Shown here: positions 10,224-37,475 of the stretch, one piece after another
Numbering within the stretch: position 1 is the stretch's first letter
How the letters are laid out: every line of letters starts with the position of its first letter
From: Gammaproteobacteria bacterium
Lineage (GTDB): Bacteria > Pseudomonadota > Gammaproteobacteria > Ga0077536
Direction: 5' to 3'
Length of the DNA stretch: 64,000 nt
Assembly: GCA_016191285.1 (NCBI GenBank)
Contig: JACPPA010000023.1
Location: forward strand, 1-64,000
Translations under genes and position numbers: made by a program
Notes under the pieces: generated by a model
Databases searched by the model: none
Told to the model about the DNA's origin: nothing
What the model saw: the letters and a program-made list of their open reading frames with translations, nothing else

Positions 10224-10300
10224 TAAACGATGGGGCGTGCGATCACCCCATGAGGCGACCTGCCGAAGCATCGCGTCCTGATCCACTTAGAGGGCGCCGC

Positions 10301-10615
10301 ATGTCTGCGATAGGCACGATCTCCGTCGAAAACCTGCTCCGCTTAGCCGGTACCCCCAAATGTCCGGCCATCGTCGACGTTGAACCCGACGATGATTGCG
10401 CCGACCCTCGAATAGTCCCAACCGCGGTCCGGCGATCCTATGCTAGCGTTGCGGACTGGGCCTCCGAGTTCAAGGGCACGCGCGTCGTTGTCGCGTGCAC
10501 GGACGGCCGCACATACAGCCCGGGCGTTGCCGCATGGTTGCGCCAGACCGGAATAGCGGCGGAAACCATCGACGGCGGGACTAGGCCTGGATTGCCGCGG
10601 GATTTCCCATGCTGA
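10301..10615 (+). CDS. Rhodanese-like domain protein, probable N-terminal half of a rhodanese-ChrB fusion
   Basis: A 104-residue rhodanese-type domain starting MSAIGTISVENLLRL, with VVACTDGR at the usual active-site loop. The nucleophilic Cys lies in VACTDGR. The start is supported by an upstream AGAGGG. In related genomes this domain is fused to the ChrB domain found 48 bp downstream. Here the expected EAW-IAAGFP continuation is only readable in another frame, after a missing base near 10581, and the frame recovers near 10642. The gene thus looks like a fusion split by a compensating indel pair, or two coupled genes. Confidence 0.65.
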   Translation: MSAIGTISVENLLRLAGTPKCPAIVDVEPDDDCADPRIVPTAVRRSYASVADWASEFKGTRVVVACTDGRTYSPGVAAWLRQTGIAAETIDGGTRPGLPRDFPC

Positions 10616-25897: not shown

Positions 25898-26086
25898 TTG
25901 TCGAGGGTCACGAGGAATCTGTGCGCCGCTAAAGAAAACCCCGAGTTCAATCGAGTTCGGGTCGCGGCCACCTGCCTTGCAGGCCTCTTTGAGCCCTTTG
26001 ATACCGCCTTCGACATCGTGGATTGCGCACTTCTTCTCGATTCCAACCGTAGCCGATATTGTCGCTTGAGCTACTTGGTCGAATAG
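25898..26086 (+). CDS. Unrecognised short protein, probably 5'-truncated
   Basis: An open frame with coding-like composition runs from about 25780 to the TAG at 26084-26086 (ADALIELLARDD, ENPEFNRVRVAATCLAGLF). The only ATG in frame is at 25898, but the coding-like sequence begins earlier, so the gene has probably lost its start. Family not recognised. It lies just upstream of the large secreted protein. Confidence 0.3.
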   Translation: MSRVTRNLCAAKENPEFNRVRVAATCLAGLFEPFDTAFDIVDCALLLDSNRSRYCRLSYLVE

Positions 26087-26121
26087 GCGTAGGCTTCGTT
26101 CCTAATTCCTGGGAGGGAAGT

Positions 26122-29100
26122 ATGCGCAACGCTCGCCTCGCCTCGCTCGCCTGTGTGTTGTCGCTCGTCCTTGGAACGTTCGGGGCGGGCGGCGCATGGG
26201 CGGACACACCAACCACTCTCGTCTCGTCGGGCGCCTTCCTCGTCTCCTACAGCAACGACCTCTTTTCCGATCCCGCCACGTTCTGGTACACGATCCCAAC
26301 CTGCACATCGTTCCCTGGGCCGCAGCCCGGAGAGGAACTGCTGCCGGCCGTGCTCACGCGCGGGACCACCTACGCCGCAACGCCGCGCGAGCTGTTGCGT
26401 GTAAATCCGGTGCGCCCGGTCGCCGTGTGTAATCCCTACAAACTGGCCTCGAACATCGCCGTCGACGGGGCCTCCCTCTATTTCGTGGACAACCAGGGGC
26501 CGAGCGGGCACTGGGCGTTACAGCGCCGCTCGCGCACGGCCAATGCCGGCGAGGCGTCGACCTTGCTCGTCGATCTCGGCACGACGCTCGACAGCGCCGA
26601 GGTGAACGCGGAGTACCCCACCGTGCTCTTCGTCATTCTGCACCGAGCGGGCAACTTCGACGGCATCAGCGAATACCTGAAAAGCAATGGCGGACTGCTG
26701 GCCGCCAATTTCGAGTTCGGGGCCCCGGGTGCGATCCGCAACCTGCAGTACGACGGGAAGTTCCTGTACTGGATCAACGGCCAGGCCCTCCGTGCAAATG
26801 ACACCACGAACGGCAGCGTCAAGACAATCACCAGCGGCAATATCTCGACGTACTTCGCCGAGGGCTTCAATGCGGGCCAGTGCAGTCCCGCTGGCTGCGA
26901 GCCAGACGGCGCTACGGTGGACTATGCAGTGGGTAACCAGATACTGTTAACCGACGGTGTGAGCGGAGGTGGTGCACTCTTCACGCGCTATACGAGCCCG
27001 GTCGCGAACGCGACGATCACGGCCATCACGCGAGACAACTTCAACACCTTCTACTTCTTCGAGCGGCGGCCGGCAGTGCCGGGCGGGGTCTTCGATCGGG
27101 AAGACCGGCTGTATCGCCTCGGCTCGCAGCTCTCGCTCATCTTCGGCCCCGTCAACAACGGCGGACCGGGCTTCGACTCGCTCACCACCGATTTCTCGTT
27201 CCTTTACTTCCATGATCGTGCCGCAGGCAAGCTGCTCCGGCTTCCCAACTCCGCTTCGGCGATCCCTACTTATGACCTGCGCGCCACCGGCGTCGAGGTG
27301 ACGCAGGGGATCCAGAATCCGAACAACGACGTGTCGCTCTACGCTGGCCGGCGCACGTTCGTGCGGCTCTACGCGAAGTCATTCGGCGCGACCGATGCAC
27401 CCAATGTCACGGCGTCGCTCGACGTCTTCGGTGCCAACGCATTTTTGGGTCGTCTCGAGCCCGTGAATGCCGGCGGGAAGCTGCTCACGGTGAAACGAAC
27501 CCCGAAGCGAGTTAACATCGATGACTCGTTCCTCTTCGAACTCCCGCTGGCCTGGACACGGTCCGCGAACCTGCAGGTGTTAGGAACAGTCAATCCGCTC
27601 GCGGGTGTCGTGGAGAATAACTTCAATGATAACGGTGTGGCGGGCCCGCTGATGCCGGTATCGGACTCACCGCGCCTGAACCTCGGGATCATCGACTTCC
27701 GCTACCTGAACGGTAACACCCTCGTGACGGGTGGCCCGCTCGAGAACTTCCAAAGCGTCGACTACATGAATCGGATCTACCCGCTCGGCCTGCCGGGCGG
27801 TGGCATCATCGATCCCGGCGACGGTCTCCACTTCTTCATCGACCCGGTGTGGGACGACGCGATGAAAACCCACGTGGATCAGAGCGACAAAGACTGCGCG
27901 TCGCTGCTGGTTATAAACCCCAATGGCACGATCAAGAGCGACAACCGCAACATGTGCGCGGGCAACTACGCCCTCGCGACCATTCGCTCCATGCGCGCGG
28001 CGGGGGATCTGCCGAAGCAGTACTACTACTACGGCGCCATTGCCAACGACGGGACCCTGGCCAACACACGCGGCTTTACACCAGGCGGGGAGACGATCTC
28101 CGTGGGGCCGAGGCTCGATTTCAACGGCACACCCCAACAGAACTACATGTCGCATGAGATCGGTCACGCCCTCGGTCGTGGGCATCCGGCGAGCGGCGGC
28201 AACCCGGTTTGCCCTGGACAAACGGCGGACGACGCCGGCTTCCCGAACCCGCAGGGACGAATTGGGAATTCATCGAGTGCGGCCACCGACGAGACTGCGG
28301 ACATGGGCTTCGATCCGGGACAGGCGGGCAACGCCAACCAGCCGCAGGTGCTGCGGCTCGCCTCGGTGACCGGCGATGTCATGAGTTACTGCTCGCCGTA
28401 TTGGATCAGTAGCTACACCTCCAGCCGGATCTGGACGCAGCTCAGTTTCTTCCCGCTGGCCGCCGCGCGGTCGCGCGCCGCGGCCGCCGCGCTTCCCGGC
28501 GACTGGCTCCTCGCCTTCGGTGACTTCTCGGTGGCAACGCAGTCCGGGAACTTCGGTTCGGTACGCCGCCTCGACGCCGTGGCTGAAGTGCCGTCGCTCG
28601 TGCCAGGCGGCTACGCGCTCGAACTGCGAAACGCGGGCGGTAGCCTTCTCGCGAGCCACGCCTTCACGCCCACCGTGTCGAACGAGGGCGCGCCGGAACA
28701 ACGCAGTTTCGGGCTCGTGGTGCCGTTCATGGCGGGCACGCGCTCGCTCCGTATCGTAGACACCGCCACCGCGAAGGTGATCGCGACGCGCGCGGTGAGT
28801 GTGAATGCGCCCGCAGTGTCGAACGTGGCGCTCGTGAACCCGCCAAACCCGCTCCACGGGGTGGTGCGGCTAGCGTGGAACGCCACCGACGCAGACGGGG
28901 ATCCGCTCCGCTACGACGTGCTTTATAGCCGCAACGGCGGCGCGACCTGGAGCCCGGTGCGGCGTTCGCTGGCTGTGACAAGTCTCGATTTCGACACGGA
29001 CGAGCTCGGCGGCGGCACGGGCCTCCTGCGCGTCGAGGCAAACGACGGCGCGCAGAGCGGGCGCGCCGACAGCGATCCGTTCAACGTGCCGCCGAAGCAG

Positions 29101-30006
29101 CCGCGCGTGCGCATTCAAACACCCGCCGCGGAAATCCATATCCAGTGGGGTCAACTCGTGAACTTCGTCGGGCAGGCGGACGATCCGCAAGCGCAGGCGC
29201 TTCCCGAGACGGCATTCGTCTGGTCGAGCCCTTTCCGTACGTTCGGCACCGGCCGCGCGATTACGGTCACCGATCTCGAGGTGGGGAGCTATAACGTCAC
29301 GCTCACGGTGACGAACACCGCCAACCTCGCGGCGAGCGCTGTCGTCCCGGTCGTAGTCGGCGATCGGGTCGCGTATCCGGGGCCGCGGCTCTCGGCAACG
29401 CCGTCCCCGATCACGTGGACGGTGCCCGCGAGCGGTGCCGGCATCCAGAACGCAACCTTGCAGGTCTCGAACGTCGGGGGACTCGGCAGCCTGCCGTTCA
29501 CCGCGACTGTGTCTCCAGGCTGGCTGCAGGTCAACGGTGGGCCGGGTGCGTCGGCTCAGGCGCCTGCCTCGCTTGCGATCACCGCCGATCCGTCGAGCCT
29601 CCCGGCCGGCCAGACGTCCGTGGGACAGGTCGTGCTGACGCACACGGGCGACCCCACCGACACGATTACGATCCCGGTCACCCTCGTGAAGGGCAACGCC
29701 TTCCTTGGCGTTCCGCCACCAGACACCGACGGTGACGGCGTTCCCGATGCCGCCGACAATTGCATCCTGGTCGCCAACCCCGATCAACGCGACACGGATC
29801 ACGATGGCTTTGGCAATCTCTGTGATGGCGATTTCAACAATAGCGGCTTTGTAAATGTCGCCGATCTCGCGATCTTCAAATCGCGATTCGGGACCGGCGA
29901 TCCGGACGCCGACCTGAATGGCAGCGGCTTTGTGAATGTTGCGGACCTCGCCATCTTCAAGAGGCTGTTCGGCAAGGCGCCGGGGCCGTCGGCGTTGAGG
30001 CCTTGA
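26122..30006 (+). CDS. Large secreted metalloprotease-like protein with dockerin-type repeats
   Basis: A 1294-residue secreted protein preceded by GGGAGGG; its signal peptide ends near GGAWADT. Residues ~30-400 have a repetitive propeller-like look (LYFVDNQG, FLYWINGQ, LYRLGSQ). A zinc-protease motif HEIGHALGRGH with a preceding Ser lies near residue 676 (HExxHxxGxxH). Downstream are a fibronectin-III-like (~900-985), a PKD-like (~1000-1075) and a BACON-like (~1090-1195) domain. A Ca-binding thrombospondin-3 motif (DTDGDGVPDAADNC) then precedes two dockerin-type repeats, each with NGSGFVNVADLAIFK or a close variant (~1240-1285). The protease motif and repeats are seen directly; cell-surface or complex attachment through the dockerin is inference. 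Confidence 0.85.
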   Translation: MRNARLASLACVLSLVLGTFGAGGAWADTPTTLVSSGAFLVSYSNDLFSDPATFWYTIPTCTSFPGPQPGEELLPAVLTRGTTYAATPRELLRVNPVRPVAVCNPYKLASNIAVDGASLYFVDNQGPSGHWALQRRSRTANAGEASTLLVDLGTTLDSAEVNAEYPTVLFVILHRAGNFDGISEYLKSNGGLLAANFEFGAPGAIRNLQYDGKFLYWINGQALRANDTTNGSVKTITSGNISTYFAEGFNAGQCSPAGCEPDGATVDYAVGNQILLTDGVSGGGALFTRYTSPVANATITAITRDNFNTFYFFERRPAVPGGVFDREDRLYRLGSQLSLIFGPVNNGGPGFDSLTTDFSFLYFHDRAAGKLLRLPNSASAIPTYDLRATGVEVTQGIQNPNNDVSLYAGRRTFVRLYAKSFGATDAPNVTASLDVFGANAFLGRLEPVNAGGKLLTVKRTPKRVNIDDSFLFELPLAWTRSANLQVLGTVNPLAGVVENNFNDNGVAGPLMPVSDSPRLNLGIIDFRYLNGNTLVTGGPLENFQSVDYMNRIYPLGLPGGGIIDPGDGLHFFIDPVWDDAMKTHVDQSDKDCASLLVINPNGTIKSDNRNMCAGNYALATIRSMRAAGDLPKQYYYYGAIANDGTLANTRGFTPGGETISVGPRLDFNGTPQQNYMSHEIGHALGRGHPASGGNPVCPGQTADDAGFPNPQGRIGNSSSAATDETADMGFDPGQAGNANQPQVLRLASVTGDVMSYCSPYWISSYTSSRIWTQLSFFPLAAARSRAAAAALPGDWLLAFGDFSVATQSGNFGSVRRLDAVAEVPSLVPGGYALELRNAGGSLLASHAFTPTVSNEGAPEQRSFGLVVPFMAGTRSLRIVDTATAKVIATRAVSVNAPAVSNVALVNPPNPLHGVVRLAWNATDADGDPLRYDVLYSRNGGATWSPVRRSLAVTSLDFDTDELGGGTGLLRVEANDGAQSGRADSDPFNVPPKQPRVRIQTPAAEIHIQWGQLVNFVGQADDPQAQALPETAFVWSSPFRTFGTGRAITVTDLEVGSYNVTLTVTNTANLAASAVVPVVVGDRVAYPGPRLSATPSPITWTVPASGAGIQNATLQVSNVGGLGSLPFTATVSPGWLQVNGGPGASAQAPASLAITADPSSLPAGQTSVGQVVLTHTGDPTDTITIPVTLVKGNAFLGVPPPDTDGDGVPDAADNCILVANPDQRDTDHDGFGNLCDGDFNNSGFVNVADLAIFKSRFGTGDPDADLNGSGFVNVADLAIFKRLFGKAPGPSALRP

Positions 30007-30017
30007 GGGTTGCCTGA

Positions 30018-30299
30018 CGAGTATATGCCTATGTTGATAACAATCCGCTAAGTTTCGTCGACCCAGACGGTTTAGCGAAGAAATCATCGACGACTGTCTG
30101 TATTGTCCCAGGTTGCGGTGCGAGACATGGCGGAGTGAGGGGACCGTACTGCCCCGACTGTTACACTAAGTCACTTGATCCAAATGGCGGTATACCACCC
30201 TACGTACCGATTCCACCGATTCCTATCCTTCCAGATCCTCTTGTTCCAGACAAAGATAGTTCGCTCGGCCCCTCAAAAGGAAAACAGTGCAGCGGATAA
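30018..30299 (+). pseudogene. Rhs-protein tip remnant (end of Rhs core plus short C-terminal toxin region)
   Basis: A frame of 93 codons starts directly after an in-frame TGA. It opens with RVYAYVDNNPLSFVDPDGL, the conserved end of the Rhs repeat core that marks where variable toxin tips begin. About 70 variable residues follow: a Cys-rich part (VCIVPGCGARH, then GPYCPDCY) that could bind zinc, and a Pro-rich end. No start codon or Rhs core precedes it; the dockerin gene stops 12 bp upstream. The stop is one base before the next gene. It is probably a displaced tip cassette left with its immunity gene. Confidence 0.75.
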
Positions 30300-30300
30300 C

Positions 30301-30966
30301 ATGCATGTTGTTATGTCAGAGAAACCGCACTTGCGCTTCGTGATTGAGATTTATGATCCGGAAACCGAGTGCATCGCCGATCAAGTAGACATCGAAACCA
30401 ACAGCGTTCACGAGCTATCCGATATTCTCGGGCTCCCATCTATGCAAGTGCACGAGACGTACGAATTAGATAAGACCGATCTTGAAAAGATAGGAGAGCA
30501 CTTCAATCTAGCAATTAGTTTGAACGCCGAGAGAGCTGTATTACGTTATCGCTTTGATTTCGACGATCTACCCTACCGAATCCATGGTAACCGCGAGCTT
30601 GCTCTCATGTTGGCGGGGAAGAAGCCGCTAGCTGTGTTTGTGGGTGACTACCATACCGATCTCGATCTGGAAGAAATACCAGAAGAGAAGCTTTTTGATC
30701 CGTACGTTGCATCCGGCCGTTTTACAAAAAGAGAGTACGTGGAGTTGCCGACGGACAAATCGGAATTCAAAACACGCAGAATTCTTTACGCCAGACCTAC
30801 GGAAGCGTGGCGCATGAATGCCTACCTTCTAATGATACAAACGGCGCGCAAAGTTGGATGGAATGAAGGATTCGAAAGAATGGAAGGCGCACTTTTAGGA
30901 TATGAGGAATGGCAAAACGATGCGCACATTCAATCGACTAGGTGCGGGAAACAGCGCCAGGCTTAA
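30301..30966 (+). CDS. Probable immunity protein paired with the Rhs tip
   Basis: About 221 residues starting MHVVMSEKPHLRF (another Met lies four codons on). The N-terminal part (FVIEIYDPETECIADQVDI) resembles DUF7683-type proteins. The C-terminal part (PLAVFVGDYHTD, GWNEGFERMEGALLGYEEW) looks like a second domain. No signal peptide, so cytoplasmic. It sits one base after the Rhs tip frame, the usual place of an immunity gene, and is visibly more AT-rich than its neighbours, as such cassettes often are. An in-frame extension upstream to 30175 overlaps the tip and is unlikely to be used. The immunity function is inferred from position. Confidence 0.6.
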   Translation: MHVVMSEKPHLRFVIEIYDPETECIADQVDIETNSVHELSDILGLPSMQVHETYELDKTDLEKIGEHFNLAISLNAERAVLRYRFDFDDLPYRIHGNRELALMLAGKKPLAVFVGDYHTDLDLEEIPEEKLFDPYVASGRFTKREYVELPTDKSEFKTRRILYARPTEAWRMNAYLLMIQTARKVGWNEGFERMEGALLGYEEWQNDAHIQSTRCGKQRQA

Positions 30967-31240
30967 TTGTTGAAGCCGCTGCCGCGGCGCTTAGCGATCG
31001 ACGCGCGCGACTTTGCAATCTTTTTTAGCTGCTGATGTAGACGACCTAGACGCACGCTGACGTGCTGATCGTGGTCTGCCGCCCGTCACGCCGCTTGCAA
31101 CATCTTCGGATAGACGCGGTCCTCAGCCGGCAAGCGGCGCGCCGGGCTTAAGTTGCTGGCGCGTGACGTTCTATCATCTTCGTTGCGCGTCGTCTTGAGT
31201 CGGAGCGCCGAGCGCGCGGCGCACGGCGCAATTTTATTAG

Positions 31241-31277
31241 CCAGGGCACTTCATGGTTACACCACCAAGTGCCCTGG
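31241..31277. repeat. 11-bp perfect inverted repeat
   Basis: CCAGGGCACTT at 31241-31251 and AAGTGCCCTGG at 31267-31277 are exact reverse complements around a 15-nt spacer. It could be a recombinase arm site, a hairpin of an origin, or an RNA stem. It lies 85 bp before the larger palindrome. Confidence 0.6.
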
Positions 31278-31361
31278 CCTCGCCCCCCACCTGCCCCCAT
31301 AGGCCACCCCACGCAATCTGCGATTGCGCGGGGACCCCGGCAGGGGCCTTGAACAGCGGGC

Positions 31362-31473
31362 AATAAACATAACGTGGGATTATGCGCAGGAGCCCGGCGG
31401 CACGTCGGCTGCGCCGCGCGCCGCCGGTCTCCTGTGCGGCCTGGCGGCCCGCATAATCAACGTTATGTGTAAA
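31362..31473. repeat. Long interrupted palindrome with two dif-like (Xer-type) sites in inverted orientation
   Basis: The right arm 31446-31473 reads as an 11-bp XerC-like half (GGCCCGCATAA), a 6-bp centre (TCAACG) and an XerD-like half (TTATGTGTAAA). The core GCATAA-N6-TTATGT is identical to that of the E. coli dif site. The left arm 31362-31390, read on the minus strand, is CCTGCGCATAA, a 7-bp centre, then TTATGTTTATT. Between them lies a second stem: 31387-31401 pairs with 31420-31434 in 14 of 15 positions. The folded top strand would resemble an integron attC site as well. An XerC/D-like recombinase is encoded 4.2 kb downstream. Confidence 0.6.
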
Positions 31474-31743
31474 TGCCCGCGCTGTGTGGCGCGTGCCGCG
31501 CCACGTTTTGTTGTATCCCCCGCCCACCCCGCCGTCCGCGGCGCACGGCTCGCAGTCGCTGCGCTCCTGGCTCGTTCCCGTGCTCGCGGCCCGCGCCCGT
31601 CCGCCCCCAAGGGGGCTCCCCGCAGAAAAAGCGGCTAAAGAGCAAACTTTCGACCACGCACCCGGCAACCGACCGCGTCTAACGCGCCAGGTTCGACGTA
31701 ACGCGGGTGATCCTTAGCGGGGGTACCCCCTAAATTACTTCGT

Positions 31744-32289
31744 TCAGTCGTCATCGATGACGAAACCGATGCCGCGGCGTTTAGTGGTCGGCGGGATCAT
31801 GAGCTGTCGAATGGCCTCGAACACCGTTTTGAACTGGGCGTCGTACTTGGCTTCGAGCGCCGCAAATTTACGCGCGAGATCCTGATGTGAAGTGAGCGCT
31901 TCCCGCAAGCGCACGAAGGCGCGCATGATCTCGATGTTGACGGCGATCGCGCGTGGGCTGCGTAGGATGGAGGACAACATCGCCACCCCTTGCTCGGTGA
32001 AAGCGTAAGGCACATACCGCCGACCACCGTGGGCGCCACTTGAGATCACAGATTGTGATCTCAAGATCTGCAAGCGCTCGTTCTCCGCGGTGGTGAGCTG
32101 AAACATAAAATCTTCGGGGAAGCGTTCCAGGTTGCGTTTGAGTGCTTGCACCAGCGTTCTCGTCTCGACGTCGTAGAGCGCTGCCAAGTCGGCATCGAGC
32201 ATCACCTTTTGTCCACGGAGCAGCAGGATGCGGCGCTCGATAGGCGGCACTGTTGGGATCGTCTTCGTTGCGAGCTTCTTGTTGACCAC
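31744..32289 (-). CDS. ORF6N domain-containing protein
   Basis: A 181-residue protein. The ORF6N DNA-binding domain occupies residues ~18-105, with the hallmarks [32 protein letters not shown] and [25 protein letters not shown] helical C-terminus follows. The family is typical of phages and integrative elements and is thought to act in regulation. The gene ends the minus-strand arm of the element, 16 bp downstream of the XRE gene, probably in the same transcript. Confidence 0.9.
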
Positions 32290-32305
32290 GCGCGAGTTCT
32301 CTTTT

Positions 32306-32746
32306 TTAGCGGCTGGCCTGTTGCAGGACGGTATCGAGCATCTCCATCACGAAGCGTTGTTTAGGGCGCGGCAGTTGGCTGATCCGCTCCATCTGTTGTT
32401 GGAGCTTGGGCGCCGGTCCGCGCTTGGTGGGTCGGGGGGTGTCTGCGCACAACGCCTCGACCGTGGTGGCCAGCGCGATGGCCAGCGTGGGCAGCATGGC
32501 GACGGCGACACGGAGGCGACCGACTTCGTAGTGTGCGAGCGTCTGCTGCGAGATCCCGAGGATATTGGCGAGCTGCTGCTGCGTGAGATCGTGCTCTTTG
32601 CGTAAGCGGGCGATGCGCTGCCCGAGCTCTTTTTGGACGGAGGCTGACTGATGGCACGCATTCCCGAGCGCGAGGTCGAACGGCTGAAAAGTGAGGTGTC
32701 GTTGGCGCGCTTGGTCGAGTCGCACGGCGTGGTGCTGACTCGCCAC
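32306..32746 (-). CDS. XRE-family helix-turn-helix regulator
   Basis: The HTH ([33 protein letters not shown]) lies at residues ~42-75 of the 146-residue frame, followed by a helical tail. The family normally begins just before SVQKELG, but no ATG, GTG or TTG is available there. The start is therefore uncertain: the ATG at 32746 or the GTG at 32725. Either choice overlaps the 5' end of the divergent primase gene by 75-96 bp. It probably represses the element's own genes from the shared region; this is inference. Confidence 0.75.
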
Positions 32747-35701
32747 GGTGTGGACTGGTTAGGGTTGTGCCCGTTCCATGACGACCATGAGCCCTCGTTA
32801 GTCATCAGTCCGAAGAAAAACCTGTGGCATTGCCTCGGCGCGTGCCAGAGCGGCGGCTCGGTGATTGATTGGGTGATGCGGCTGGAGGGCGTGTCGTTCC
32901 GGCACGCGGTTGAACTGTTGCGCGAAGGCATTCCCCCTTTAGCTGCTGAAACGGCGAGCCCGCCGCGCGTGGTGAAGCAATCGACGGTGCCGAAGCTGCC
33001 GGCGCCGGTGATCCCGGACGCGGACGATCACGCGTTATTAAACCAGGTCATCGATTATTACCACGCGACGTTGAAGCAAAGTCCGGAGGCGTTGGCCTAC
33101 CTACAGAAACGCGGCCTCGCGCATCCCGAGGTCATTGACCACTTCAAGCTTGGCTTCGCGAATCGGACCTTGGGCTTGCGGTTGCCGGAGAAGAATCGCA
33201 AGGCGGGCGCCGAGATCAGAACGCGTTTAGAAAAACTCGGGGTGTTACGGGAGTCGGGGCACGAGCACTTCAACGGCTCGCTGGTGATCCCAGTCATCAA
33301 TGCACAAGGGCAAGTGACCGAAGTCTACGGCCGCAAGATCACGGACGGCTTGCGCGCGGGCACCCCGGACCACCTGTATCTGCCAGGACCGCATCGCGGC
33401 GTCTGGAATGAACCGGCGCTCGCCGAACATCAAGAAATCATCCTGTGTGAGACGCTGCTTGATGCGCTGACGTTTTGGTGCGCGGGCTATCGAAATGTCA
33501 CGGCGAGCTACGGCATCGAGGGTTTTACCGCTGAGCACCTGGCGGCGTTTAAGCACCGCGGCACTGAACGAGTATTGATTGCCTACGACCGCGATGCGGC
33601 CGGTGAGCGGGCGGCCGAGAAATTAGCGCAGCAGTTGCGGGGCGAAGGCCTCGACTGCTACCGGATCCTCTTCCCCAAAGGCCTGGACGCCAACGAGTAC
33701 GCGCTGAAAATCACCCCGGCGGCGAAGTCGTTAGGTCTGGTGATCCGTAAAGCGCAGTGGTTGGGCCAGGGGGAGGCGCCGACAAGAACGATACCGCTCG
33801 CTGACGCGCCGCCGGGCACGGTCCCGACCGCCGCGGCGACTAAAGAAGAAACCTCGGCGGCGAGCGTGTTGCCTGCGGCGCCGGTGCCCTGCACCGCACT
33901 GCCGGCCTCGCCGTTACCGGCGCTGGCCGCACCTGATATTGAGGCGCAGGTCCGCGAGGAGGAAATCGTGATGGTGTTGAGCGATCGCCGCTATCGCATC
34001 CGCGGGCTGGCCAAGAACCTCGCCTTCGATGTGCTGTTGAAGGTCAACGTGCTGATCGATTGCGGGGATGCCTTCCACGTCGATACGCTCGATCTGTATA
34101 GCGTGCGGGCACGTAATGGTTTTATTACGCAGGCGGCGCGCGAACTCCACGTTACCGAAGACGTGATCCGTCACGACTTGGGAAAAGTGCTGCGAAAACT
34201 GGAAGCACTGCAAGAGCAGCAGATCGCGCAGACACTGCCACCGACCGCGCAACCCGCGATGCCGGCTGAGGAACAACAGGAAGCAATGGCGCTGCTCACC
34301 GACCCGCACCTCCTAGATCGATTACTGGCCGACTTCGCGCGCTGCGGGGTGGTCGGCGAGGAGAGTAATAAACTCATCGGCTATTTAGCCGCGACGTCCC
34401 GCAAACTTGAAGCGCCGCTGGCGGTGCTCGTGCAGTCGAGTTCGGCGGCCGGCAAAAGCGCCCTGATGGCCGCGGTGCTCGCCTTTATGCCTGACGAGGA
34501 CAAGGTGCAGTACTCGGCGATGACCGGGCAGAGTCTGTTCTATATGGGCACCATCGACTTGAAGCACAAAATCCTGGCGCTGGCCGAAGAAGCCGGCGCC
34601 GCGCGCGCGAGCTATGCGCTGAAACTTTTGCAGAGCGAAGGGACCTTAAGCATCGCTTCCACCGGCAAAGACCCGGCGACCGGCAAACTCGTGACGCAGG
34701 AGTACCGGGTCGAAGGTCCGGTGATGATCTTCTCGACTAGTACCGCGCTCGATCATGACGAGGAGTTACTCAATCGCTGCTTGACGCTCGGGGTCGATGA
34801 ATCGCGCGCGCAGACGCGCGCGATCTTGACCGTGCAGCGCCAGCAACGCACGCTCGACGGCCTGTTCGCCAGGCGCCAAAAAGAACGGCTGCTCGCCGTT
34901 CATCAAAACGCGCAGCGCTTATTGCGACCGCTTGCGATCCGCAACCCTTACACCGAGGCGCTGACCTTCCCGGACGAACGGACGCGACTCAGGCGCGATC
35001 ACGAAAAATACCTGACGCTGATCGATACGCTCGCGCTGCTGCATCAACACCAGCGTGAGATCAAAAGCGCTGAGCAAGATGGCGCGCGCATCGAGTATGT
35101 CGAGGTCACGGTGGCGGACATCGAGATTGCGAACGCCCTCGCGCATGAAGCGCTCGGCCGCTCGCTCGATGAACTCTCGCCGCAGACTCGGCGACTGCTG
35201 GAGTTGGTGTCGAGCATGGTCGAGCAGCAATGCCTGGCGCAAGCCATCACGCGCACCGATTATCGCTTTAGCCGCCGCGACGTGCGCGAGTATGCGGGCT
35301 AGTCGGACTTCCAGGTCAAGAGGCACATGCATCAGCTCGAAGCACTGGAATACGTGCTCGTGCATCGCGGCGGGCGCGGTCAGAGTTTTGTGTACGAGCT
35401 GCTCTACGACGGCCAAGGCCAGGATGGCCAACCGTTCGTGATGGGACTGGTCGATGTGCAGACCTTGCAACGTGACTACGATGGCAAGAAGGAGCATCAA
35501 AAACCAAACTTGGAGCAGCCAAATAGCCTGCAAGTAGCACACATGGAGCATGAGGGTAGCGCGCCGAAAACAGCGCCAAACACGCTAAATACAGGCTCTT
35601 CCCGAGAACCACCGAAAAATAACGGCAAACTCGCGTCGCTGGACGAAGCGGCGTTAGTGGCATCGTACCCGCAAGCCCCCTTAGCTATCGGTCTGCAATA
35701 G
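32651..35701 (+). pseudogene. CHC2/Toprim DNA primase of an integrative element, interrupted by an amber codon
   Basis: A 1016-residue reading frame with one internal TAG at 35300-35302. The N-terminal CHC2 zinc finger (LCPFHDDHEPSL, HCLGACQSGGS, residues ~38-75) and a Toprim domain (IILCETLLDAL to LIAYDRDAAGERAAE, ~265-325) define it as a primase. The part beyond residue ~590 (AVLVQSSSAAGKSAL) has a Walker A-like P-loop, suggesting a fused ATPase. After the stop the same frame continues with plausible sequence (SDFQVKRHMHQLEALEYVL, to 35701). A Trp (TGG) is the simplest ancestral codon at the stop. The 883-residue product keeps the primase and ATPase parts and may still work. Confidence 0.8.
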
Positions 35702-35704
35702 TTC

Positions 35705-36799
35705 ATGCCGAGGAAGGGCCAGCGCCTCAAACACCGCAAGACCGCGTGGCCGAAGCCGCCGGGGCCGTGGCCTCGAGAGCGCACCGATCCGTTGGGGCAT
35801 TTACCGCTCACCGCCTATATGAATGCGCACTTCGACTGGATGCAAGTCACGGGATACTCGCAGGACACCGTGCGCGCGCGCCGCACCGCACTGCGGCGGT
35901 TTATTGCCTGGTGCGAGGCGCGCGCGCTGCGCGATCCGAGGGACCTTACCAAGCCGATCCTGGAGCGCTATCAGCGGCATCTGTTCTACTACCGCAAGGC
36001 CGACGGCCAGCCCATGACCTTAGGCACGCAGTGCGGGTGCCTCGCACCCTTGAAGACGTTCTTCAAGTGGCTCGCGAAAGAGAATCACATCCTGTACAAC
36101 CCGGCTTCCGAACTCACGTTGCCGAAATTACCGAAACATCTGCCACGGGTGATCTTGTCGGTCCAGGAGGTCGAGGCGATCTTGCGCGAAGCCGAGCCCA
36201 CGGATCCCCCCGCCTTGCGTGATCGCGCGATGCTGGAAACGCTGTACTCGACGGCATTGCGGCGCATGGAGTTACCAGGTCTCACGCTCTACGATGTGGA
36301 CCTCACGCGCCGGCTGGTGATGGTGCGCGAGGGCAAAGGCAAACGCGATCGGGTGGTGCCGATCGGCGCACGGGCCGCGGCCTGGGTTGATAAATACTTG
36401 CAAGAAGCGCGGCCGCAGTTGCTGATCGGGGATGCGGAGGCCTTGTTCCTGACCGACTATGGCGCGCCGGTGACACCGGAGTACGTGGCCGAGCGGGTGC
36501 GCCGTTATATGCACTTCGCCGGCATCCATAAACCCGGCGCCTGTCATCTGTTCCGCCACGCCTGCGCTACGCACATGCTGGAGAACGGTGCCGACACGCG
36601 CTTCATCCAGGCGCTGTTGGGGCATGCCGACTTAAACACCACGCAGATTTACACCCGCGTCTCGATCGACAAGCTCCGCGAAATCCACGATGCCACGCAT
36701 CCGGCGAAACTGCCGCGAACCGCACCGCCGCCAACTTTAGCCGCGGCCGCGCTCGAAGCCGAGGATGCACTCGACGATGAAGCGGACCTAGCAACCTAA
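35705..36799 (+). CDS. XerC/D-like tyrosine recombinase
   Basis: A 364-residue recombinase with an N-terminal core-binding domain (~residues 35-135) and a complete catalytic domain. The Arg is in YSTALRRMEL, the Lys hairpin in REGKGKRDRVV, HLFRH carries the His/Arg, LLGHAD the second His, and TQIYTRV the nucleophilic Tyr. It starts 3 bp after the primase frame, so the two are probably co-transcribed. It is expected to integrate or resolve the element. The dif-like palindrome at 31362-31473 is an attractive target. Unlike the recombinase at the left edge, all catalytic residues are present. Confidence 0.9.
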   Translation: MPRKGQRLKHRKTAWPKPPGPWPRERTDPLGHLPLTAYMNAHFDWMQVTGYSQDTVRARRTALRRFIAWCEARALRDPRDLTKPILERYQRHLFYYRKADGQPMTLGTQCGCLAPLKTFFKWLAKENHILYNPASELTLPKLPKHLPRVILSVQEVEAILREAEPTDPPALRDRAMLETLYSTALRRMELPGLTLYDVDLTRRLVMVREGKGKRDRVVPIGARAAAWVDKYLQEARPQLLIGDAEALFLTDYGAPVTPEYVAERVRRYMHFAGIHKPGACHLFRHACATHMLENGADTRFIQALLGHADLNTTQIYTRVSIDKLREIHDATHPAKLPRTAPPPTLAAAALEAEDALDDEADLAT

Positions 36800-36822
36800 G
36801 GCGGCGCGTTGAGGCGCACCTC

Positions 36823-37020
36823 ATGCAGCAAGAACCCCGCGTCGAGCTCACCGTCCTGCTGACCGAGACCGAAGCCTGGGCGTTCGCCCAATTCCTCAAA
36901 CGCGTCGGCGACAGTGACTACCGACGCTGCGCCGCGAGCGACGCCGAGGCGCAGCACATGCGGGACGCCGGCGAACACGTGCGCCGCGCGCTAGCCGAGC
37001 ACGGCTACGCCCCGCGGTAG
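36823..37020 (+). CDS. DUF7706-type small protein
   Basis: A 65-residue charged protein (VELTVLLTETEAWAFAQFLKR, ending EHGYAPR). Small proteins of this look commonly follow recombinase and primase genes in such elements and are catalogued as DUF7706. Function unknown. It starts 23 bp after the recombinase gene and is probably the last gene of its transcript. Confidence 0.65.
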   Translation: MQQEPRVELTVLLTETEAWAFAQFLKRVGDSDYRRCAASDAEAQHMRDAGEHVRRALAEHGYAPR

Positions 37021-37475
37021 CTCGCACCTCGCGCTTAGGACCAGCTCCCGCCGATCCTCTTTAGCTGCACGCGGCTAAGGTGAATTACTGCCTTGACCAC
37101 CCACCCCGGTTAAGCCGAAACTCGCGTCTAGGCCAAAAACCTTCTTCGCCAGGAGCCGTGTCTTCATCCTTCAGACCTTAGCCGCTGAATCGCCTCGAGA
37201 AAACAGCTTCGCTTACGATGAACTCGCGACGGGGCCAACTGTATGGCGCTTACTTGGCGCGATTCGATGCATCGCCCCGTGTGCTCCGACACGGGGTCCG
37301 GTGAAAAAATAAATTCGTTATTCGGCTAGATTCCAGCCTTCCACGCCCTACGAAAACACGTCAATTCGTCGTTCACGAGCGGATTTGGGTGGGGGCGTAT
37401 TAGCGCTGACGGTGACCGTCGGTGCCTCCGGTGCCTCCGGTGCCAAGACTCCATCGAACAATCCCTCCGCGCACT
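37021..37475. other. Intergenic region with one hairpin
   Basis: No convincing gene. It contains a perfect 8-bp stem-loop (CCCCGTGT/ACACGGGG) at 37275-37296, followed by an A-rich rather than T-rich stretch. No second copy of the dif-like core was noticed here. Confidence 0.4.

Follow-up and report, generated by a model that had tools for sequence, protein, structure and literature searches.

The window, by which we mean the whole stretch of 64,000 nucleotides analysed here (contig JACPPA010000023.1), carries an integrative element of about 7.2 kb, which contains a palindrome made of two inverted dif-like sites, with centres of 6 and 7 bp, that pair with each other as a hairpin (Table 1). The element opens with the orphan tip of an rhs toxin gene and its probable immunity gene, which are followed by the hairpin, an ORF6N-domain gene, an XRE-type regulator, a DnaG-type primase gene and a gene for an Xer-type tyrosine recombinase. 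On the comparisons set out below, its identity as an integrative element is very likely.

An earlier, sequence-only reading of this locus had described two facing sites with GCATAA and TTATGT cores, the right with a 6-bp and the left with a 7-bp centre, and had placed them 270 bp from the ORF6N module. Direct reading of the sequence bore out the two sites, and the ORF6N gene was found to end 271 bp to the right of the palindrome. The orphan rhs tip immediately to its left and a second copy elsewhere in the genome do not figure in the earlier description. The extra stem reported between the sites is also present, with the longer, 86% complementary arms listed in Table 1 in place of the 15 bp then given. 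When the region 31340-31500 was folded as a single strand, it reached -60 kcal/mol against -39.8 for shuffled sequence (z -6.3), a value equalled by none of 200 shuffles. Arms of the form ACATAAY/RTTATGT that pair equally well occur once in the window and were seen in one of 300 first-order Markov windows.

Table 1. The element and its hairpin, with the basis for each assignment; coordinates are those of the window.
Feature	Position	Strand	Basis
Whole integrative element, ~7.2 kb	30021..37240	+	tip start agrees with other rhs-core junctions; right end aligns with right ends of L034 and L047
Orphan rhs tip: rhs-core fragment VYAYVDNNPLSFVDPDGL, then short C-terminal region, 92 codons	30021..30299	+	translation
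Probable immunity gene (DUF7683)	30301..30966 (listed open reading frame 30175-30966)	+	Pfam PF24731, E 9.8e-7; behind tip; ATG at 30301
Hairpin site	31359..31478	+	covariance-model match, 58 bits
Left dif-like site GCATAA-TCCCACG-TTATGT	GCATAA 31385-31380, 7-bp centre, TTATGT 31372-31367	-	read from sequence
Left outer box ACATAAC, XerD-arm-like	31367..31373	+	core ACATA invariant over 32 aligned sites
Left inner box ATTATGCG, XerC-arm-like on - strand	31379..31386	+	pairs with 31450-31457
Central stem, arms 31384-31404 and 31417-31437, 86% complementary	31384..31437	+	length and sequence vary among relatives
Right inner box CGCATAAT	31450..31457	+	sequence reading, family alignment
Right dif-like site GCATAA-TCAACG-TTATGT	31451-31456 / 31457-31462 (6 bp) / 31463-31468	+	read from sequence
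Right outer box GTTATGT, XerD-arm-like	31462..31468	+	family alignment
ORF6N-domain gene	31744..32289	-	Pfam PF10543, E 1.9e-31
XRE-type helix-turn-helix regulator	32306..32746	-	Pfam HTH_3; RstR-like below cut-off
DnaG-type primase with P-loop region	32651..35302	+	Pfam CHC2 zinc finger, Toprim
Xer-type tyrosine recombinase, 364 aa	35705..36799	+	Pfam Phage_integrase; NCBIfam NF002331 above cut-off
Conserved right end of element	37091..37240	+	aligned with L034 and L047; family motif

Close relatives of the palindrome were confined to a second copy in the window's own genome, G000 (contig 37; C37), and diverged copies in two genomes of the same family (G013 and G018), and these three were also the only ones of 36 family genomes to encode the recombinase at E 1e-60 or better. 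The other weak blastn matches, in distant genomes, were short G+C-rich chance matches. Collections of plasmids and phages held nothing similar to a 241-bp query from the window, because the hairpin diverges fast outside its boxes. Scanning with an alignment of the recombinase located 72 loci across Proteobacteria and a few other phyla: Beta-, Gamma- and Alphaproteobacteria, Geobacteraceae, Gemmatimonas, Krumholzibacteriia and others. These relatives sit mostly between rhs toxin tips, with a typical gene order of rhs tip, (ORF6N), XRE, primase, recombinase, hairpin, right end and next rhs tip. Viral contigs yielded distant recombinases only, which argues against a typical phage element. On a Pseudomonas aeruginosa plasmid (L156 4595-15782), the module, partly duplicated and with no hairpin match there, lies behind a two-partner-secretion gene of TpsA2/CdiA type; the range of targets therefore probably extends beyond rhs, apparently to cdiA-type toxin genes.

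The ends of the element could be defined from repeated copies. At four loci (L036, L080, L083 and L104) whole units of 6.5-8.5 kb stand in tandem with 99.5-99.9% identity and with borders in the rhs core, and the module is present twice at several further loci. Downstream borders share a common right-end motif (about GCGTCTAGGGAAAA...TACGACG...GTCGGGGCGAACT) that abuts the rhs codons directly; in the window element, the alignment with L047 stops exactly at AACT 37240. The rhs codons at the border fall into six classes (YAYV, YNYF, GGINxY, DxETN, SDPIG and PGQY), which were fixed before the recombinase tree was built. When mapped on that tree, they require five changes, the minimum possible; shuffled assignments averaged 17.2 changes and were never as low. 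Since border class follows recombinase clade, it appears from this comparison that the recombinase, rather than general homology, sets the insertion site.

Occupied and unoccupied forms of one locus are found in Escherichia coli, where a query for recombinase plus hairpin identified 55 of 5,426 complete genomes. In strain SCU-113 two copies of the element lie behind an rhs gene, between ansP and pptA. The same locus in Ec-U9-1 and A34 is without the element: here the rhs core continues straight into its tip, which is the one lying behind the elements in SCU-113, with the same immunity protein (WP_023155668.1). The alleles compared are natural ones, with no flanks joined artificially. A 15-bp repeat, GACCCGATAGGGCTG, stands at both borders and between the copies in SCU-113, and is short for homologous recombination. 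As read from these alleles, insertion gives the rhs gene a new toxin tip and displaces the former tip downstream. A tyrosine recombinase, defined ends, direct repeats and an unoccupied allele, the features of integrative elements of this type, are thus all present.

These borders bear directly on the sequence-only reading, which proposed the palindrome as the element's attachment or resolution site; in the former case, integration and excision would take place by recombination there. The inverted dif-like sites do adjoin an Xer-type recombinase, as in the attP of CTXphi. The borders, however, lie in rhs-core codons, both in the tandem arrays and in the E. coli alleles with their 15-bp repeat, and the hairpin sits inside each unit, far from them. 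This identifies the rhs core, by comparison of aligned ends, as the attachment site and the hairpin as internal to the element. A CTXphi-like arrangement with the element ends at the hairpin is contradicted by the borders, and any role of the palindrome as an attachment site is highly improbable. Two circular database records, one of 11,289 bp from Lonsdalea populi and the other of 8,758 bp and filed under Shigella flexneri, each consist of such an element with recombinase and hairpin; these suggest an excised circle, although they could be collapsed tandem arrays.

We found the hairpin at about half of 73 loci. This supports in part the expectation in the sequence-only reading that related modules would share a conserved site: relatives do share it, but about half are without a recognisable copy. 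The first hairpin scan gave zero matches in shuffled sequence, and the copies that the model identified later (C37, L051, L089, the E. coli copies and the circular records) agree with the pattern described next. Across 32 aligned sites, ACATA/TATGT of the outer box shows little or no variation. The inner box and further stem positions change on both sides together: such double changes fill 55 cells, compared with 15.5 after shuffling, and their register is sharp; as the aligned sites were selected by pairing and outer box, both covariation and box conservation are inflated. For 30 of the 34 hairpins, the bottom strand gives the more stable fold, a count that overstates the support since the sequences are related.

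The usual position of the hairpin, 10-800 bp downstream of the recombinase and in the same orientation, together with its high stability, would suit an RNA structure or a transcription terminator behind the recombinase gene. Against this, conservation is concentrated in the outer boxes, the window site has no T-run, the hairpin is inverted in L089 and adjoins ORF6N in the window and in L051, and Rfam has no match at the hairpin. Such a role is accordingly improbable, slightly more so than that of a double-stranded host XerCD site of the dif/cer type, resolving multimers of the circle. The latter would fit the window-type hairpins, in which, as in the window copy itself, XerC-like and XerD-like arms flank centres within the 6-8 bp of dif/cer sites (6-7 bp). 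Conservation of both arms does not extend across the family: only among window-type hairpins is there sequence conservation in the inner arm, while most hairpins of the other type have an inner arm that is not dif-like and keep the pairing alone. Moreover, genomes retain tandem arrays in which the hairpin stands twice in identical form. A candidate host dif, ACTTCGCATAA-TGTGTA-TTATGTCAAAT, sits on a different contig from the palindrome, and comparing host dif sites with the hairpins left the two hairpin types unexplained.

The main rival explanation, in our view unlikely but the best of the alternatives, is that the hairpin is a replication origin or priming site at which the element's primase copies the excised circle. 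A primase gene is present in nearly all complete elements, the hairpin lies in non-coding DNA with further hairpins, and the circular records have no other obvious initiator gene. Yet L034 combines a recombinase and two hairpins with no detectable primase, several primase-bearing elements have no recognisable hairpin, and the outer boxes are similar to XerD arms.

That similarity leads back to recombination. The window recombinase is closest in structure to XerD (1a0p), over nearly its full length, and matches the integron integrase IntI (2a3v) over only 58 residues; its score against the integron integrase model TIGR02249, 125.7 bits, is under the cut-off of 265. Given XerD-like outer boxes and an XerD-like recombinase, binding of the hairpin by the element's recombinase or by host XerD is plausible. 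The two also travel together. In 15 host genomes every hairpin match lies beside the recombinase or its remnant, and the hairpin query returned 55 E. coli genomes, the same count as for recombinase plus hairpin, the sets being compared by number only. The sequence-only reading was therefore right to tie the palindrome to a mobile element that encodes a recombinase of Xer type; its further expectation, that such palindromes would not occur far from these recombinases, holds for the 15 host genomes but not for three of the matches among 274 class-level genomes, nine of which have hairpin matches.

We propose that the element is excised as a circle by its own XerD-like recombinase at the rhs-core junction, and that the hairpin would be recognised in folded form, as the bottom strand or as an extruded cruciform, by this recombinase, by host XerCD or by both. 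Complete, tandemly repeated elements without a recognisable hairpin (L053, L057 and L063) imply that integration does not need it; hence the role proposed is an auxiliary step of recombination or processing while the element is circular or single-stranded, for example the resolution of multimers or the capture of single-stranded copies, rather than ordinary integration.

Several observations weigh against this proposal, beginning with those same hairpin-less elements and the caveats given above on circular records and site selection. Hairpin type follows recombinase clade only in part: L075 is placed within the other type on the tree, which makes the hairpin modular to a degree. A comparison of related right arms gave no consistent signal of recombination breakpoints at the hairpin. 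Of the three matches away from such a recombinase, one (G250, L172 9156-9243) is an isolated window-type hairpin that has a P4-type integrase gene at 67 bp and a helicase gene nearby, but lacks an Xer-type module within 18 kb, one (G161) stands at a contig end near a phoR-like gene, and one (G233) is a weak match to a perfect palindrome. The support comes from sequence comparison and folding. Taken together, we give the full statement, that an internal, structure-conserved Xer-type hairpin belongs to an integrative element which enters the rhs (apparently also cdiA-type) core and swaps the toxin end, somewhat less than an even chance; the role assigned to the hairpin, a folded site in an auxiliary step, is a little more tentative again.

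Comparison with known systems places the element between several of them. In CTXphi attP(+), attP1 and attP2 lie 90 nt apart (PMC5357621), and as there, two inverted dif-like sites fold into a hairpin of about 100-150 bp. Unlike IMEX (integrative mobile elements exploiting Xer) of the CTXphi type, which insert at host dif by means of host XerCD, the element has its own recombinase and borders in the rhs core, not at dif or the hairpin; its conserved boxes are the outer, XerD-like ones, whereas CTXphi keeps the XerC side. For the folding and recombination of a single-stranded genome, as in CTXphi, the comparison extends to folding energies. With integron attC sites such as the Vibrio cholerae repeat (features taken from PMC3053210), the hairpin shares an imperfect palindrome, conserved outer boxes and pairing, a variable centre and a bottom strand that folds better, subject to the selection bias of the aligned sites. 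The likeness to a folded attC-type site drawn in the sequence-only reading stands as far as pairing is conserved more than inner sequence; use as such would be a further step. Unlike in attC, nearly all sites have an ACATAAC/GTTATGT one position off RYYYAAC/GTTRRRY, with AAT or CTATGT in several of them; the recombinase is not IntI, and the hairpin marks no cassette borders, these being in the rhs core. That an Xer-type recombinase lacking the integron-specific insert uses a folded attC-like hairpin, and that single-stranded recombination arose outside integrons and CTXphi-like phages in elements exchanging the toxin tips of rhs and cdiA, is possible though doubtful.

Links between recombinases and toxin loci have been noted before. 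In bee gut bacteria integrase genes recurrently adjoin Rhs genes and are suspected of moving toxins (PMC5727410); they were only noted, without element borders, site or hairpin, and we liken them to the present element by Rhs neighbourhood alone, not by recombinase family. A single sentence in Zhang et al. 2012 (PMC3482391) names XerC/D genes beside polyimmunity loci as a possible reason for accumulation; there, as here, Xer-type recombinases adjoin toxin immunity genes, with neither a site nor an element defined in that work. A literature search limited to open-licence papers found no description of the element, its site or the hairpin, which is not proof of novelty.

The window copy itself is damaged, with a broken primase and a shifted hairpin. 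The primase frame has an in-frame TAG at 35300-35302, beyond which it is open to 35701; relatives read through, and the homologue in L027 is an uninterrupted protein of 1018 aa. No intact rhs core lies upstream of the orphan tip, which is closely preceded by a dockerin/TSP3 gene ending at 30006; nor is there a clear rhs tip beyond the right end. The C37 copy (95% identity) retains hairpin, ORF6N and XRE, with its recombinase reduced to a fragment. Both are relics or near-relics, better-preserved forms being found in other genomes. The gene before the window tip (26059-30006, + strand) encodes a large 1315-aa protein in which PKD, TSP3 and dockerin-like domains were recognised; a protein similar to it continues, at the C37 copy, in frame into rhs core and tip. 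A 65-bp sequence resembling the end of the ORF6N gene is shared between L025 8845-8909 and window 30977-31041 (94% identity), lying to the left of the window hairpin and to the right of the C37 remnant, and is a possible trace of the rearrangement by which the hairpin was shifted. Near the end of the C37 remnant there is a tRNA-Sec-like sequence (L025 ~8160-8080, - strand), judged by eye only. Elsewhere in the window, 10227-10303 (+ strand) gave a strong Rfam match to the chrB-a RNA family.

Other members of the family carry additional features. Between hairpin and right end, L027 (6750-7180) and L028 (4200-4630) have a HicB/HicA-like toxin-antitoxin pair, in place of which the E. coli and Lonsdalea elements have SymE-type toxin genes. 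Further conserved hairpins occur in the right arm (L083 6150-6265 and L073 7300-7405, around TGCGGTGCAAG...CTTGCACCGCA and CCGTCAAGGCC).

The toxin ends of Rhs and CdiA proteins turn over rapidly. In the model of Rhs C-terminal displacement, an incoming circle with a new tip pushes old tips downstream, a process attributed to homologous recombination by way of circular intermediates whose origin is unknown (Jackson et al. 2009, PMC2935791). The element described here likewise leaves former tips downstream of the rhs gene; unlike in that model, the tip comes together with a recombinase, by which the site appears to be set. With a recombinase-bearing element at the rhs core, carrying tip and immunity gene, and with unoccupied alleles in E. 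coli, the origin of the circles becomes directly testable in a laboratory species. The hairpin raises a second question, namely whether an element outside both integrons and filamentous phages makes use of a folded Xer-type site.
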